DNA from: Pseudochryseolinea flava
GTDB lineage: Bacteria > Bacteroidota > Bacteroidia > Cytophagales > Cyclobacteriaceae
Length of the DNA: 64,000 nt
Direction of reading: 5' to 3'
Assembly (NCBI RefSeq): GCF_003286915.1
Contig: NZ_QMFY01000001.1
Location: 1,054,001 to 1,118,000, forward strand
Shown here: positions 2,660 through 57,796 of the stretch, in pieces
Layout of the letters: each line of letters starts with the position of its first letter
How positions within the stretch are numbered: position 1 is the stretch's first letter
Position numbers and translations under genes: made by a program
The notes under the pieces: model-generated
Told to the model about the DNA's origin: nothing
The model's database searches: none
What the model saw: the letters and a program-made list of their open reading frames with translations, nothing else

Positions 2660-2716
2660 AACGATTTAGAATATCGATTTACGATTTTTTCTGCACATCG
2701 CTATGGAAGGTTGCCA

Positions 2717-2980
2717 CTAAAGGGCGACAATGCCCTCAATCGCTGCGGCAGCAACATAGATTCTAATAACCTCGTCGCTTGAATTGGCCATCACTTGTGC
2801 TGTAACGCTTGTGTAGTTCCCTTGCTTAGAAAGTTTTTCAGTCACAGCATGCTTAGGAAATAGTTTCTTGACTTCCTCCTCTTTCCCTTTCGGCACAATG
2901 AATTTATAAATGTAAAGTGAGGGCCAGGCGTAGTGCTGGTCCAGTTTCTCTCTAAAGTTGTTAAACCATTCTTCGTTCAT
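2717..2980 (-). CDS. DUF493 family protein
   Basis: A short soluble protein resembling the DUF493/YbeD family: it has the pattern PSLYIYKFIVP near residue 20 and ends with a region ending AAAIEGIVAL. YbeD-like proteins have an ACT-like fold and a suspected regulatory role, but no activity is established. The reading frame could extend to a TTG at 2992, but that codon lies inside the terminator hairpin of the upstream foldase gene (2991-3017), so the ATG at 2980 (87 residues) is chosen. It is followed by the pterin dehydratase gene 57 bases downstream. Confidence 0.85.
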   Translation of the reverse strand: MNEEWFNNFREKLDQHYAWPSLYIYKFIVPKGKEEEVKKLFPKHAVTEKLSKQGNYTSVTAQVMANSSDEVIRIYVAAAAIEGIVAL

Positions 2981-2981
2981 C

Positions 2982-3017
2982 TTAAAAAGCAACGCCTCCC
3001 GACAAGCAGGAGGCGTT
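2982..3017 (-). terminator. Rho-independent terminator of the PpiD-like foldase gene
   Basis: A 9-bp perfect stem, AACGCCTCC (2991-2999) with GGAGGCGTT (3009-3017), and a 9-base loop. On the minus strand it is followed by GCTTTTTAAG. It lies 21 bases past the stop at 3038 and directly ahead of the DUF493 start, so DUF493 needs its own promoter or read-through. Confidence 0.85.
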
Positions 3018-3037
3018 CATTAAAATTTTTAATATTC

Positions 3038-5146
3038 CTAGTTGAACTTATAGCGCTCGTCTTCAATATCAGATTTTTCTTTGATGGCCTCGGAGATACT
3101 ATATCCGGCCATGTTCAGGCTCTGCAGAAGTTGTTGTGAATACGGCGTGTAGTTTTCAATTGCAGGTGCAACAGTTTTGTTTTGCAGTTCAACAATCAAA
3201 ACACCGTTTTCACCATTGAAAGGTTGTGAACGCTTCCCATTCTCAAGGGAGAAGGATACACCCACGGCAACAGGATCGTAATTAACAGCTGGTGGTAATC
3301 CATTGCCACTTAAGCGCACGTTGCTAGAAGTATAAACAGTTGCTTCTTTTCCGAAGCCAGCTGCAATTTCGTCTAACGTCCCTTTTAAGCCATTGAGCTT
3401 CGCAGCGATTGCTTTGCCCTTTACAATTTTTTGTACTTCAGGCGTAATTTCATTCTTAACGGATTCAAATGGGCGATGGCCTTTTTTGATCTCGCCTGTC
3501 ATAACAGCAACTACATTTTGTCCTTCAAGTTCGAACACCTGAGAAACCTTGTCTGTTTTTGCTTCACGGTACAACCATTGTACTACTGCGCGTGCCTCGC
3601 CGAGACTGCTAACACCTCTGTCGCTAGCGCGGATGCTCTTCGCTTCGAGAACCGTTAGACCTTGCTCTTTTGCTTTTGCTTCGAAGTCTTCCACATCAGA
3701 TGCAGTTGCTAATGCCTCTGCCTTCGTAAACGCTGCGCTGATAGATGCATCCAATGGAATGATTTGTTCTTCAACAATAGCCAATTGATAAGCTCTGTTT
3801 GTTTTTGGATTAGTGACATCAATGATGTGGTATCCAAACTGTGTTTCTACTACTTCGTTCAGAAGTCCAGCTTTGGTAGCGCCGAAGATGGCATCTTCAA
3901 AAGGCTTCACCATGGTGCCGTTGTTTGCAAACCATCCTAAGTCACCACCGCGTTGCGCGTTAGATTGATCTTGGCTGAATGCACTTGCTTGACCTGCAAA
4001 GTCTGCTCCTTTTTTGATGGCATCCAATACATTGTTTGCACGTGTTTTTGCGTCAGCTTTTGCAGCATCCGTTGAATCGGTCCAAGTAATTAGGATGTGA
4101 CGAGCACTAGCGTAAGAAACAGTGTCGTTCGTCACTTTAGAAACTTTTACAATCTTGTACGAGTCGCCATCAACAATAGGGCCGATCACTTTACCCTCCA
4201 CGAGGCTATCGCGGTTGATGAAAGTTGGAAGCGTACCATTGTTGTATTTTTCAAATGGCGTGTTGCTTAATGAATATTGGTAAGCAACCGCGGAATCATT
4301 AGATGTAGTACGGAAAGCTTCAAGTGCTTTTGCAAGTTTGTCCTGTACGATGGCGCTATCCTGAGCAGATGGCACAACGGGTACGCTAACATACTTGATA
4401 TCGCGAGTGGCTTCTGTTTTGAAGCGTTCGATGTTCTTCTGATAAAAGTCCTTGAGGTCGCTGTCGGAAACTTGTGCAGCAGAATCACTGATGGCAAAGA
4501 AAGGAACATACAGATATTTCAGTTCAGCTACATCTTCTTGTGCGTGATAAGCACGTTCAGCTTCGGCCTTTGTGACATAGCCTGTTTTGAGAATAAGGTT
4601 TTCGTATTTGATACGGGCACGCGCAGGTGCGAGGTTATCCGCATACATCTTCAGACGTAAGTACTCTTGCGAGTTTTGATTACTTCTTGCTTGGCTAATA
4701 TAGTTCTGCATCATAGCGCGATCGAACTCGCCAGTTTGAGGGTTCACAAAAGCCTGACGAAGTCCTTCTTCGATGTTAACACCTTCGATCATGTCAAGCT
4801 GTTCTTCTTGCGTAACCGTAATACCAACCTTTTCGAATTGTGGTTGGAATGCGTACTTGGCAATCAAAAGCTCCCATGCTTGTTGACGGATACCGATCAT
4901 TTCGCGTTCACCCGGGTCGCGTTGTGCACGCTGACGATATTGTTCTTCCATTTGGAGCACAGTAGCGTCGAATTCTTTTTTGGTGATTTCTTTACCGGCG
5001 ATGGTGCCTACTTTATCGGCGCCCCATCTCATGATGTTGGAATTACCACTGAAGATATCACCGAGAATAAATGCTGAAATCGCGACAAACACGAACACCA
5101 CTAATCCGATGCCCGCCTTATCACGCAAAGTTCCTATCAATGCCAT
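3038..5146 (-). CDS. PpiD-like membrane-anchored peptidylprolyl isomerase (SurA N-terminal plus parvulin domain)
   Basis: A 702-residue protein. An N-terminal transmembrane anchor covers about residues 11-31, after a short cytoplasmic start MALIGTLRDKAG typical of PpiD. A SurA_N-like chaperone region follows (about 40-190), then a parvulin rotamase domain (about 347-440) with ARHILI, GGDLGWF and FGYHIIDV. A further C-terminal region (450-650) resembles a second, degenerate parvulin module. PpiD-like proteins work at the periplasmic face of the inner membrane on newly exported proteins, which fits the outer-membrane and T9SS cargo encoded nearby. It has its own -7 box upstream and a strong terminator downstream, so it is probably monocistronic. 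Confidence 0.92.
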   Translation of the reverse strand: MALIGTLRDKAGIGLVVFVFVAISAFILGDIFSGNSNIMRWGADKVGTIAGKEITKKEFDATVLQMEEQYRQRAQRDPGEREMIGIRQQAWELLIAKYAFQPQFEKVGITVTQEEQLDMIEGVNIEEGLRQAFVNPQTGEFDRAMMQNYISQARSNQNSQEYLRLKMYADNLAPARARIKYENLILKTGYVTKAEAERAYHAQEDVAELKYLYVPFFAISDSAAQVSDSDLKDFYQKNIERFKTEATRDIKYVSVPVVPSAQDSAIVQDKLAKALEAFRTTSNDSAVAYQYSLSNTPFEKYNNGTLPTFINRDSLVEGKVIGPIVDGDSYKIVKVSKVTNDTVSYASARHILITWTDSTDAAKADAKTRANNVLDAIKKGADFAGQASAFSQDQSNAQRGGDLGWFANNGTMVKPFEDAIFGATKAGLLNEVVETQFGYHIIDVTNPKTNRAYQLAIVEEQIIPLDASISAAFTKAEALATASDVEDFEAKAKEQGLTVLEAKSIRASDRGVSSLGEARAVVQWLYREAKTDKVSQVFELEGQNVVAVMTGEIKKGHRPFESVKNEITPEVQKIVKGKAIAAKLNGLKGTLDEIAAGFGKEATVYTSSNVRLSGNGLPPAVNYDPVAVGVSFSLENGKRSQPFNGENGVLIVELQNKTVAPAIENYTPYSQQLLQSLNMAGYSISEAIKEKSDIEDERYKFN

Positions 5147-54259: not shown

Positions 54260-54354
54260 TTATTTTTTTCAGGAATAGGGGTAAAGATTTTTTCAATTGT
54301 CATAACCTCAACGCCCTAAAACCGTAAATTTCGCTGTTAAATCAACCCAAAGCA

Positions 54355-54930
54355 GTGGAATTAACGGACCAGCAATACCTCTCAGCGCTAAAAACGGGCG
54401 ATATAACTGCTTTTGAAATGCTGTTCCGGAATTACTATCAGCCGCTCTGCAACTATGCATATACCTTCGTGCAAGATCGCGACGAAGCAGAAGAGATCGT
54501 TCAAGCCACGTTCATGTCGGTTTGGGAGAAGCGTGATGCACTAGAAATACGAACTGCAGTACGTCCCTATTTGTATGCGATGGTTCGCAACGCATGCTTA
54601 AATGTGATCAAGCATGAAAAGATTAAACAGGTGCATGCAGCAGGTGAAATAGCATTTGCGGAACGAAGTGTTGAATCGGTTACACGAACGGTGATGGCCG
54701 CTGAACTCGAGGACAAAATTCAAGAGGCGCTGTTGAAACTTCCCGAGCAATGTAGACTGGTATTTAAGCTTAGTCGATTTGAGGAGTTGAAATACGCTGA
54801 GATTGCAGAACAACTGAATATATCGATTAAAACAGTCGAAAATCAAATGGGCAAGGCGTTGAAAATCATGCGTGATCAGCTCAGCGAGTATCTACCAATG
54901 TTGATTATCCTGATGAATGGATTTATTTAA
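54355..54930 (+). CDS. ECF-type sigma factor (FecI-like)
   Basis: A 191-residue sigma-70 family member. Region 2 (about 20-90, YQPLCNYAYTFVQDRDEAEEIVQATFMSVWEKRD) and region 4 (about 125-180, LPEQCRLVFKLSRFEELKYAEIAEQLNISIKTVENQMGKALK) are present; region 3 is missing, as in ECF factors. The start is a GTG at 54355. The next gene is its anti-sigma partner, with 9 bases between. Confidence 0.95.
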   Translation: MELTDQQYLSALKTGDITAFEMLFRNYYQPLCNYAYTFVQDRDEAEEIVQATFMSVWEKRDALEIRTAVRPYLYAMVRNACLNVIKHEKIKQVHAAGEIAFAERSVESVTRTVMAAELEDKIQEALLKLPEQCRLVFKLSRFEELKYAEIAEQLNISIKTVENQMGKALKIMRDQLSEYLPMLIILMNGFI

Positions 54931-54939
54931 AAAAAGAAA

Positions 54940-55938
54940 TTGAACAACCTACCGACACATATTGATGAACTGATTAGCAAGTATCTTGCCGGTGAAGCTT
55001 CGCCTGAAGAAGCCACACAGGTTAATACTTGGGCCGCTGCAGATGATAGCAACAAGAAATATCTACAGCAACTTGAATTCATTTTCAAGAAAACGCCAGC
55101 GATTCAAAAGTGGCAAGACTTTGACACCGATGCGGCATGGTCTAAAATGCGCAGCAAGTTGAAGGAGGGTTCGACGAAGACTGTCGAACTTCATCCTAGA
55201 AGATCGTTCCATTATTTACAGATTGCAGCAAGCATCGTGATTGTATTAGGCATTGGATTCGGTATCTATCAGATGATGGACATAAATAAACCGGCCAATG
55301 TTGTAGCAGTGTCGTCCACCAAAGAAACGAAGAGCGATACACTCCCGGATGGAAGCAATGTGTTCCTCAATAAATTGACCGAGCTCGATTATGCATTTGA
55401 TAAGAAAGATAAAACGCACCGTATAAAGCTTCGCGGCGAAGCGTATTTTCATGTAAAGCACGAGGACGATAAGAAATTTTTAGTGGAGGCTGAGGGAATC
55501 TTTATCAAAGATATTGGTACTTCGTTCAATGTAAAGGCTTATCCAAATACCAATACCATTGAAGTGGTTGTTGAAGAAGGAGAAGTTCAATTTTATTCGA
55601 AAGATAACCCAGGTGTCTATCTGCAAGCCGGTGGGCGCGGTGTCTACAACAAGAAAGATAAAACGTTTACGGTGGAACCACCACAAGCAAACGTACTCGC
55701 TTATAAAACGAAATTTTTCAGCTTTAGCGATGCAAGGTTAGGCGATGTTGTTGAAGCGCTTAACAATGTGTACGAAAAGAAACTTTCAATAGGGTCTCAG
55801 CTAGAGAATTGCTTGCTCACCGTTTCGTTTAACAACGAGGATCTAAACGAAATCGCTAATATTATTGGTGAGACGCTTAATCTTAAGGTGACCGTTACCC
55901 GCGATGGATTCTTACTCGATGGAGATGGTTGTGAGTAA
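54940..55938 (+). CDS. FecR-type anti-sigma factor with C-terminal DUF4974 domain
   Basis: A 332-residue inner-membrane protein. An N-terminal cytoplasmic part (about 1-85) ends before a helix at about 90-108 (LQIAASIVIVLGIGFGIYQ). The periplasmic FecR domain (about 125-235, LPDGSNVFLNKLTELDYAFD) is followed by a DUF4974 domain (about 250-325, FFSFSDARLGDVVEALNN), related to the STN fold. It should hold the sigma factor until a signal arrives from the outer membrane. The start is a TTG at 54940. The next gene overlaps it by up to 35 bases. Confidence 0.93.
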   Translation: MNNLPTHIDELISKYLAGEASPEEATQVNTWAAADDSNKKYLQQLEFIFKKTPAIQKWQDFDTDAAWSKMRSKLKEGSTKTVELHPRRSFHYLQIAASIVIVLGIGFGIYQMMDINKPANVVAVSSTKETKSDTLPDGSNVFLNKLTELDYAFDKKDKTHRIKLRGEAYFHVKHEDDKKFLVEAEGIFIKDIGTSFNVKAYPNTNTIEVVVEEGEVQFYSKDNPGVYLQAGGRGVYNKKDKTFTVEPPQANVLAYKTKFFSFSDARLGDVVEALNNVYEKKLSIGSQLENCLLTVSFNNEDLNEIANIIGETLNLKVTVTRDGFLLDGDGCE

Positions 55939-57796
55939 AATCAGATTTGTCGGTGCATTAGTTTTTGCGCTGATAACATGGTGCACATACGGTCAGCGTG
56001 CGACTCCGCCACCACTGGAAAGAACCATTACAATCAGTTTTGATAATGAGACCGTTGATGGCGCGCTAAAAAAGATTGGTCAACAAGCCGGCCTTACATT
56101 CTCGTATAGCCCTTCCGTTGTAAAGATCGATCGTCCAATTAACGCGAATTTTATCAATAAGACCGTTCGTCAAATTCTTGACGAGATGTTTAAGGGACAA
56201 ATTCATTATAAGTCGCGTGGGGATTATGTTATTCTAACAAAAGCGGAGGGTGCATCTAATCAACAAAAAGTAAGCGGTTATGTGATTGATGAAGCGACAG
56301 GCGACAAGTTGAAAAACGTAAGTATTTATGATCCTGTGTCGTTGGCATCTGCGATTACCGATGATTATGGTTATTTCCAAATTGAGGTACCGAATGCGAA
56401 AGAGGTGAAGCTTGCCGTTCGAAAGCATAACTACACCGATACCTTAGTGTATGTTCCTTCTGAAAACGGATTAATCGATATCCGACTAGCATCGAAAAAA
56501 CTTGGAATTTTTGCAGATAGTGTCGGTCACAAAATGAAACGCTTTTGGCTTACCACTAAAGCCCTGACGCAGCGCGCTATCATGTTCGAGAACATTGAAG
56601 ATTCCATTCATCGTAAGTTTCAATTTTCATTTGTGCCTTTTGTGGGAACGAATCATAACATGAGTGGTCACGTTATCAACGATTTTTCTGTCAACATGAT
56701 TGGCGGATATTCTCTCGGCGTTAATATGATAGAGTTCGGTGGAATGTTTAACACGGTGCGCGGAAATGTTAGAGGAGCTCAATTCGCCGGATTGTTCAAC
56801 GCCGTTGGTGGCGAAGTGGAGGGCTATCAAGCCGCCGGATTGTTCAACGCGGTTCGAGGGAAAACCCATGCAGTACAGACGGCGGGGTTGATCAATTTCA
56901 GTTGGGCGGAAACGGAGACCGTCGGGATAGCAGGTCTGATAAATTTCGGTTACAAGGATTCGCATGATGTGCGAGTCGCCGGGCTAAGCAATATTAATTT
57001 TGGAAATCAAGGAGGTCCGCACGTAGCAGGACTTTTTAATTTTACGACCAAATCATCAGGCCCGGCACAACTAGCGGGCTTATTTAATTTTGCAGCGGCC
57101 AATGTAAAGGGAGCACAAGTAGCTGGCATGTTAAATTTTACGGCGGGTGATCACGAAGGCGCGCAAGTTTCTGGCCTCGTGAATTTCGCCGGAAAAAGAA
57201 TGAAAGGTGCGCAAGTTGGTGTGCTGAATTTCGCAACAAAGTTCAAAGGAACGCAAATTGGTTTATTTAATATTTCAGATAGTACTGACGGCGTGCCTAT
57301 CGGCTTGCTCTCAATTGTAGGCAGAGGTTATCATGCGATCGAGATATCTGCCGACGAGGTTTTTTATACCAATGTGTCATTCAGAACCGGCGTGAGAAAA
57401 TTCTATAATATTCTTACGGCAGGTATTCAGCCGCACACACTTTCGGAAGATGTGAATGTTTGGACCTTTGGATATGGCGTCGGAACGTCTCCAAGGCTTT
57501 CGAATAAATTCTACTTAAACATTGATGTTACGGCGAATCAAATCGTTGCAGACGGAAACATTGATGCCTTGAATCTTTTAAACAAATTGTATGTGGGCGG
57601 GGAGTGGCGCGTGAGTAAAAATTTTGGTCTAGCAGCAGGCTGCACAGTGAACGCACTCGTACAGGAAACATCTTACGAGGGATACCCAGATATTTTCCCT
57701 AACCTCAAGCCAGACATCATTGAGGAACATACTTATGACAATGACCGCATTATGAAAATGTGGTTCGGTGCTAAAGTTGGGCTGCGTTTTTTTTAA
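55904..57796 (+). CDS. STN-domain surface-repeat protein (non-TonB partner of the sigma/anti-sigma pair)
   Basis: Up to 630 residues; ATG codons at 55904, 55919 and 55925 all precede a signal peptide ending TYGQ. An STN domain (about 42-112, TISFDNETVDGALKKIGQQ) is followed by a carboxypeptidase-regulatory-like domain (about 120-190, VSGYVIDEATGDKLKNVSIY). From about 275 to 470 there are about 13 units of 15-16 residues on the theme GAQVAGLFNFA, the LA_2272-type surface repeat. The last 155 residues resemble a barrel tail, ending GAKVGLRFF. It lacks the plug and 22-strand barrel of a TonB receptor. I infer it receives an envelope signal for the FecR protein. Confidence 0.88.
   Translation: MDSYSMEMVVSKIRFVGALVFALITWCTYGQRATPPPLERTITISFDNETVDGALKKIGQQAGLTFSYSPSVVKIDRPINANFINKTVRQILDEMFKGQIHYKSRGDYVILTKAEGASNQQKVSGYVIDEATGDKLKNVSIYDPVSLASAITDDYGYFQIEVPNAKEVKLAVRKHNYTDTLVYVPSENGLIDIRLASKKLGIFADSVGHKMKRFWLTTKALTQRAIMFENIEDSIHRKFQFSFVPFVGTNHNMSGHVINDFSVNMIGGYSLGVNMIEFGGMFNTVRGNVRGAQFAGLFNAVGGEVEGYQAAGLFNAVRGKTHAVQTAGLINFSWAETETVGIAGLINFGYKDSHDVRVAGLSNINFGNQGGPHVAGLFNFTTKSSGPAQLAGLFNFAAANVKGAQVAGMLNFTAGDHEGAQVSGLVNFAGKRMKGAQVGVLNFATKFKGTQIGLFNISDSTDGVPIGLLSIVGRGYHAIEISADEVFYTNVSFRTGVRKFYNILTAGIQPHTLSEDVNVWTFGYGVGTSPRLSNKFYLNIDVTANQIVADGNIDALNLLNKLYVGGEWRVSKNFGLAAGCTVNALVQETSYEGYPDIFPNLKPDIIEEHTYDNDRIMKMWFGAKVGLRFF
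56749..57290 (+). repeat. Encoded tandem repeat array (about 13 units) in the STN protein
   Basis: The units are 15-16 residues with the core AGLFNF, as in FAGLFNAVGG, QLAGLFNFAAAN, QVAGMLNFTAGD and QVSGLVNFAGKR. At the DNA level they are diverged, so they are an old protein repeat, not a recent DNA expansion. Confidence 0.85.

Follow-up and report, generated by a model that had tools for sequence, protein, structure and literature searches.

The window analysed here, a stretch of 64,000 nucleotides from Pseudochryseolinea flava (contig NZ_QMFY01000001.1, positions 1,054,001 to 1,118,000), contains three adjoining plus-strand genes, which encode an extracytoplasmic function (ECF) sigma factor, a FecR anti-sigma factor and a protein that combines an STN domain with LA_2272-type surface repeats. 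Most descriptions of FecR-type signalling couple it to import driven by TonB. The trio of the window probably forms a cell-surface-signalling system of the FecI/FecR type, in which the TonB-dependent transducer is replaced by a TonB-free sensor in the outer membrane. The computed basis of this reading is the anatomy of the genes, the lack of a plug and of a TonB barrel, the conservation of the trio as a unit, the recurrence of the same barrel in fused proteins resembling Dma and the positions of a promoter-like motif.

The first gene (54355..54930) codes for a protein of 191 amino acids (aa), which is a FecI-type sigma factor according to TIGR02985 (183.7 bits, cut-off 126.4). It is followed by fecR (54940..55938; 332 aa), whose product exceeds the cut-offs for both the FecR domain (PF04773, 1.6e-15; residues 127-217) and the C-terminal domain FecR_C (PF16344, 2.7e-7; residues 260-319) and possesses one transmembrane (TM) segment at residues ~95-113, with the hydropathy peak at residue 95; solved relatives in the Protein Data Bank (PDB), 4m0n and 4m0h, cover residues 128-284. 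The third gene (55904..57796) has a complete open frame of 630 aa when read from the first ATG and then overlaps fecR by 35 bases, while the other in-frame starts at 55919, 55925 and 55931 (GTG) give overlaps of 20, 14 and 8 bases. Its product, for which an outer-membrane location is predicted, contains an STN domain (56024..56242; PF07660, 2.9e-9, 37.0 bits, cut-off 28.4), which spans residues 41-113 in the AlphaFold2 model and 65-113 in Pfam, and a transthyretin-like CarbopepD_reg_2 domain (56270..56494, residues 123-197; 3.6e-8). It also holds the only match of this genome to the LA_2272 repeat family NF047436 (49.8 bits, cut-off 25). No Plug or TonB barrel family of Pfam was matched up to E = 1.

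Repeats of 16 residues occupy residues 257-475 of the third protein (56672..57328). Eleven of the units are regular, with a spacing of 16 (nine times) or 15 (once), and the repeat identity at lag 16 is 0.343, compared to at most 0.173 for any lag from 10 to 24 across 2000 shuffles. Asn, Gln or Gly fills 15 of the 18 columns that are invariant in an alignment of 49 sequences (the window's among them), which suggests that the repeat part is a β-solenoid with Asn/Gln ladders. L92 within the STN domain and L38 just ahead of it are also invariant in these sequences, and both the repeats and the C-terminus have conserved letters of their own. The AlphaFold2 model built on this alignment (pLDDT 89.1, pTM 0.59) consists of a leader helix, the STN domain, the transthyretin-like domain (residues 120-195), a helix (219-230) and a strand (235-244), followed by 16-aa units of two strands each (257-475) and then by long strands (476-629; 57329..57790), which may form a small outer-membrane barrel ending in aromatic residues. 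The long strands are far fewer than those of a 22-strand TonB barrel, and according to the model, a TonB barrel is not present in the third protein. When the model was compared to the PDB with Foldseek, the top row belonged to the transthyretin-like domain (5aq0, E 1.5e-3); among the best 50 of 773 rows, outer-membrane barrels matched weakly and TonB receptors were absent. A sequence profile search of the PDB gave a sole match, to a SusC homologue (chain 9hfj) in the CarbopepD_reg part, and a pattern scan of the genome contigs with the third protein matched 30 stretches, none of which was confirmed. An earlier note on this DNA had described an ECF sigma factor, a FecR with its C-terminal domain and a third gene overlapping fecR by up to 35 bases, whose product keeps the STN domain and lacks a plug and a large TonB barrel; this description is borne out by the profile matches, the coordinates and the model. 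Its count of about 13 repeats fits the two-strand units of the model, and the barrel-like tail that it mentioned corresponds to the long strands, which adjoin the C-terminal FF.

The trio is a conserved unit. In a search of 291 genomes of the order, 186 were found to match the third protein at E <= 1e-3, partial and N-terminal-only matches being counted as well, which rules out that the arrangement is confined to the window. The search for further genomes with the trio, which the earlier note had proposed, showed that FecR immediately precedes, at -143 to +137 bp, 67 of 72 genes that code for both an STN domain and LA_2272 repeats (STN-LA genes); these loci, the window's included, are picks rather than a random sample, 60 having been taken from the printed matches of the order-wide search and 18 added later besides the window. 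In most loci, the third gene overlaps or abuts fecR. Within 3.5 kb downstream, 22 of the 72 STN-LA loci carry a gene for an STN-less TonB receptor and 19 a second LA gene without STN, with either kind in 37, although some of the stretches end before 3.5 kb. In a tree of 40 LA-linked FecRs, chosen from the 67, and 35 other FecRs, the label changes 3 times, compared to 25.2 times in shuffles. The window genome has 12 FecR matches. Behind nine of them stand frames with lengths from 891 to 1210 aa, and a plug is present in all four of these large frames that were scanned; of the other three matches, one belongs to the trio and two lack a receptor (L053 and L062).

In addition, a shared promoter-like motif predicts that the sigma factor has a regulon of its own, made up of cell-envelope genes. 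The exact sequence TAGGGGT-N14-TTGTC stands at 54276..54301 on the plus strand, 53 nt before the start of the ECF gene, and is a predicted ECF promoter. It occurs seven times in the window genome, compared to one occurrence in the reversed control and 0.30 to 0.70 expected from the composition of the window. None of the seven sites falls within a frame over 150 aa, and each stands at a distance of 10 to 53 nt from the start that follows it. Downstream of them lie the ECF operon, two genes for STN-less receptors (C45 and C11; 784- and 827-aa frames), which had been found earlier by homology, two DUF2807 genes, a gene for a PAP2 phosphatase and one for a protein of 211 aa that begins with a signal-like leader and has no match in Pfam. 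The sigma factor may regulate its own locus, judging from the shared motif. A genome of another genus (G684) has a homologous trio with 74, 54 and 52% identity and nine exact sites. Six of these precede homologues (57 to 73% identity) of the ECF gene, a receptor gene, both DUF2807 genes, the PAP2 gene and the small-protein gene, which we take as putative orthologues from a one-way comparison. The sequence around most of the sites has otherwise drifted. In G684, a piece of a CarbopepD_reg domain stands at the N-terminus of the PAP2 phosphatase of the regulon (L278, 304-1356).

Among relatives, TAGGGGT lies upstream of the ECF gene in 11 of 12 loci of family f1; the full motif is exact in eight of them, the window included, has one mismatch in one and two mismatches in two, and was not found before the ECF gene of L064. 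It also precedes second LA genes and STN-less receptor genes of relatives. In 81 loci, which had been selected for the trio, the motif was found 41 times exactly, 43 times with one mismatch and 78 times with two, compared to 0, 2 and 29 times in a single shuffle of each locus. Genus g69 uses the variant TTAGGGT-N14-TTGTC before ECF and second LA genes alike, and the listed ECF genes of family f19 lack the motif, while the two second LA genes of that family keep TAGGGGT. That the motif is common to all FecI-type sigma factors of the window genome is ruled out by its other 11 FecR loci (ECF gene found in 10), in which there is no site with one mismatch or fewer. Among the genomes covered by both the order-wide search and the motif count, the eight with a strong STN-LA match together contain 19 exact motifs, compared to 7 in the reversed control, and the four in which no STN-LA match occurs contain 0, compared to 4; two genomes with weak matches, G119 (one motif) and G244 (none), were left out. 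Fifty-four distinct exact sites were inspected, a 55th being an identical copy. Thirty-two of them, seven in the window genome, precede genes for ECF sigma factors (4), FecR (4), LA proteins (5), receptor-type proteins (6), DUF2807-type proteins (8), PAP2 phosphatases (2) and the small protein (3); 11 lie within a frame over 150 aa and are likely due to chance, and 11 stand before other genes or none. In four other genomes, the site is located at the end of the ECF gene, just before fecR; an STN protein follows in three of these, and a CarbopepD_reg and LA protein without detected STN in the fourth.

The barrel is also found in a second context. Dma, as described in PMC13088901, consists of an anti-sigma domain, a TM helix, a disordered tether and a C-terminal barrel and is encoded beside an ECF21 gene. 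In family f15, fused LA proteins that are Dma-like, with a predicted anti-sigma-like N-terminus, occur in 10 of 15 genomes searched. A short domain (consensus HExPYNPxDW) is followed by a TM stretch, whose hydropathy is over 1.5 in eight of the 10 proteins, a long low-complexity linker and the LA part; in G161, the N-terminal part lies in another frame. An ECF gene stands just upstream on the same strand in nine of the 10 loci, overlapping the fused gene by 8 to 17 bp in seven and separated from it by 52 and ~240 bp in two; the tenth locus ends at the contig end. In the AlphaFold2 model of L184 (pLDDT 72.7, pTM 0.55), helices are found between residues 7 and 90; residues 90 to 215 have pLDDT values mostly below 50, and after them comes the strand pattern of the window protein. 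The term anti-sigma refers here to the layout, because the two fused proteins scanned gave no Pfam match. An STN-LA gene is present as well in at least two of these genomes (L026, L190). The barrel would thus be coupled to ECF sigma factors in two ways and is therefore argued to be the input; the fusion to anti-sigma-like proteins behind ECF genes favours a role of the LA_2272 barrel as the sensor. Two fused proteins (L191, 850-1965; L193, 889-1977) lack the 16-aa repeats and keep the barrel part. Family f43 has LA proteins of ~500 aa, which were also considered as Dma-like; this idea was dropped, the plus-strand ones that were read beginning with signal-like leaders.

We propose that the STN domain of the third protein would sit in the periplasm, that the transthyretin-like domain and the following helix would join it to the repeat solenoid and the small barrel in the outer membrane, and that it would meet FecR at the C-terminal domain of the latter, which is STN-like. 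This contact would be altered when a ligand or the state of the outer membrane brings about a change in the solenoid or barrel; FecR would then be processed by proteases of the Prc and RseP type, thereby freeing the sigma factor to read TAGGGGT-N14-TTGTC promoters, including that of its own operon and those of the two STN-less receptors, the two DUF2807 proteins, the PAP2 phosphatase and the small secreted protein. We infer that the signal travels in this direction and that the predicted promoters are active. In the window genome, four homologues of Prc and one of RseP score over the cut-off, and the FecR of the trio contains GTSF at residue 193; Gly-Thr is a self-cleavage site in such proteins. 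It has been described that FecR_C of PupR and FoxR is STN-like, that FoxA and FoxR make an STN-STN contact, that FoxR is shielded from proteolysis, and that Prc is involved (PMC11637429); FecR is reported to be cleaved by RseP (PMC8144685). It is tempting to guess that the signal is the state of the outer membrane, because DUF2807 belongs to the 'Toastrack' group, which is discussed with envelope stress (PMC11237479); a nutrient or a glycan would be the alternative. The earlier note had suggested a route that does not depend on nutrient import. The transporter-free sensor speaks for this suggestion and the STN-less receptors, downstream in 22 of 72 loci and twice preceded by the motif in the window genome, speak against it; since the predicted outputs include receptors, import independence is only partly supported.

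Several findings weigh against a TonB-free sensor acting through FecR. The STN-FecR contact is a step that we infer, and the small barrel is of uncertain topology, because pTM is only 0.59 and the model found no Foldseek match in the PDB at E <= 1e-3. Five of the 72 STN-LA genes have no adjoining FecR (L065, L099, L101, L116 and L171). The split in the FecR tree is unclean, with L166 outside and L053 and L209 inside the LA cluster, and its starred branches force at least two label changes. The motif is not universal: it is exact, has one mismatch, has two or is absent in 15, 8, 13 and 29 of 65 ECF genes, in 8, 3, 13 and 5 of 29 STN-less LA genes (the motif is absent from the four Dma-like ones among them) and in 6, 5, 0 and 14 of 25 receptor genes. 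Its exact form occurs 55 times in 60 genomes of the family, compared to 45 times in the reversed control, and the signal lies in which genes follow rather than in the genome total. Furthermore, the Plug scores of the two STN-less receptors with the motif are weak (24.9 and 18.1 bits, cut-off 23.9) in a scan of their first 491 aa.

Three other explanations have to be weighed. The true sensor might be an STN-less TonB receptor of the regulon, with the STN-LA protein acting only as an adaptor to FecR; such a split transducer resembles the model drawn for VreA, which was proposed as an adaptor to unknown outer-membrane partners (PMC2729926), and signalling would still follow nutrient import. The receptor genes downstream in 22 of 72 loci and the two with the motif in the window genome agree with this; however, the other 50 loci have no such receptor downstream on the same strand in the stretch read (in L098, it is on the opposite strand), and six profiles called no receptor gene in the short stretches of the Dma-like loci, which makes a split transducer rather unlikely. 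Still less probable is that the third gene is a mere target of the sigma factor, coding for a surface protein with a relic STN domain, while FecR senses something else. LA proteins without STN do look like targets, with the exact motif upstream in 8 of 29, and the five STN-LA genes without an adjoining FecR are orphans, but this explanation does not fit the third gene overlapping or abutting fecR in most loci, the invariance of L92 and L38 or the LA barrels fused elsewhere to anti-sigma-like domains. An ordinary FecA-type transducer that was mis-read or truncated is hardly credible. STN plus CarbopepD_reg also forms the N-terminus of at least one plug-bearing receptor behind FecR in the window genome (L054); however, the open frame of the third gene is complete, 60 aligned proteins have 526-757 aa (prefilter 520-760), neither the domain search nor AlphaFold2 yielded a Plug or TonB barrel, and the repeats and the C-terminus bear their own conserved letters.

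The TonB-free sensor proposed here is most closely related to FecI/FecR/FecA and FoxI/FoxR/FoxA (PMC11637429, PMC8144685), with which the trio shares an ECF sigma factor, a single-TM FecR with FecR_C, an N-terminal STN domain on a predicted outer-membrane partner and adjoining genes; self-regulation may be a further likeness. Unlike FecA and FoxA, the partner in the window has no match to a plug or TonB-type barrel and carries 16-aa repeats and a small predicted barrel; the predicted targets of the system comprise, among others, STN-less receptors encoded at other places in the genome. In the VreA/VreR/VreI (PUMA3) system of Pseudomonas aeruginosa, the STN partner of a FecR-type system is likewise not a TonB receptor (PMC2729926); an STN partner without a receptor is not new in itself, because VreA has been published. 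However, VreA is mostly soluble, probably periplasmic and has a TolA/TonB-like C-terminal domain, whereas the C-terminus of the window protein consists of repeats and strands. As in Dma, a TonB-free outer-membrane barrel would be linked to an ECF sigma factor, and the f15 relatives share the layout of Dma by prediction, but in the window the link is made by two proteins, FecR and the STN-barrel protein, and not by one chain. The likeness to LA_2272 surface repeat proteins lies in the NF047436 match. Among the matches listed in the literature searched (titles and beginnings of abstracts, mostly without subscription papers), the arrangement is not described, and LA_2272 is named in only two papers, a single time in each, both of them on Leptospira. 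What does appear to be new is a partner built of repeats and a barrel, together with its Dma-like sister and the predicted regulon.

The balance tips slightly towards a general class of TonB-free outer-membrane-to-sigma systems in Bacteroidota, in which a portable solenoid/barrel sensor would be connected to the sigma factor along either of two routes, namely a detachable adaptor of STN and transthyretin-like domains that works with FecR, or a fusion that makes the sensor one chain with a dual-membrane-spanning anti-sigma protein, and in which a dedicated TAGGGGT-N14-TTGTC promoter would serve an envelope-remodelling regulon, with transport as an output rather than an input. If a conserved sensor without a transporter holds, the STN/FecR relay would be a general channel from the surface to the genes, and the LA_2272 repeat proteins would gain a predicted role. 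The predicted promoter and the seven-site regulon make the surface-sensing reading directly testable, and the Dma link suggests how such systems might interconvert.

Some FecR loci depart from the common arrangements. In the window genome, two ECF-FecR pairs (L053 on C44 and L062 on C33) have no receptor or STN gene behind them. In a 4.3 Mb genome (G064), the sole FecR match adjoins an STN-LA gene (L205); the trio can therefore persist without receptor-linked FecRs. Finally, at L292 (G119:C1:1300000-1306500; 2698-4170), an ECF-FecR pair is followed by a 490-aa STN and CarbopepD_reg protein, whose STN domain is detected by our own profile and not by Pfam at E 0.01. Its C-terminus contains neither an LA repeat nor a plug, and the TAGGGGT-N14-TTGTC motif stands before fecR; the STN adaptor may thus carry several sensor heads.

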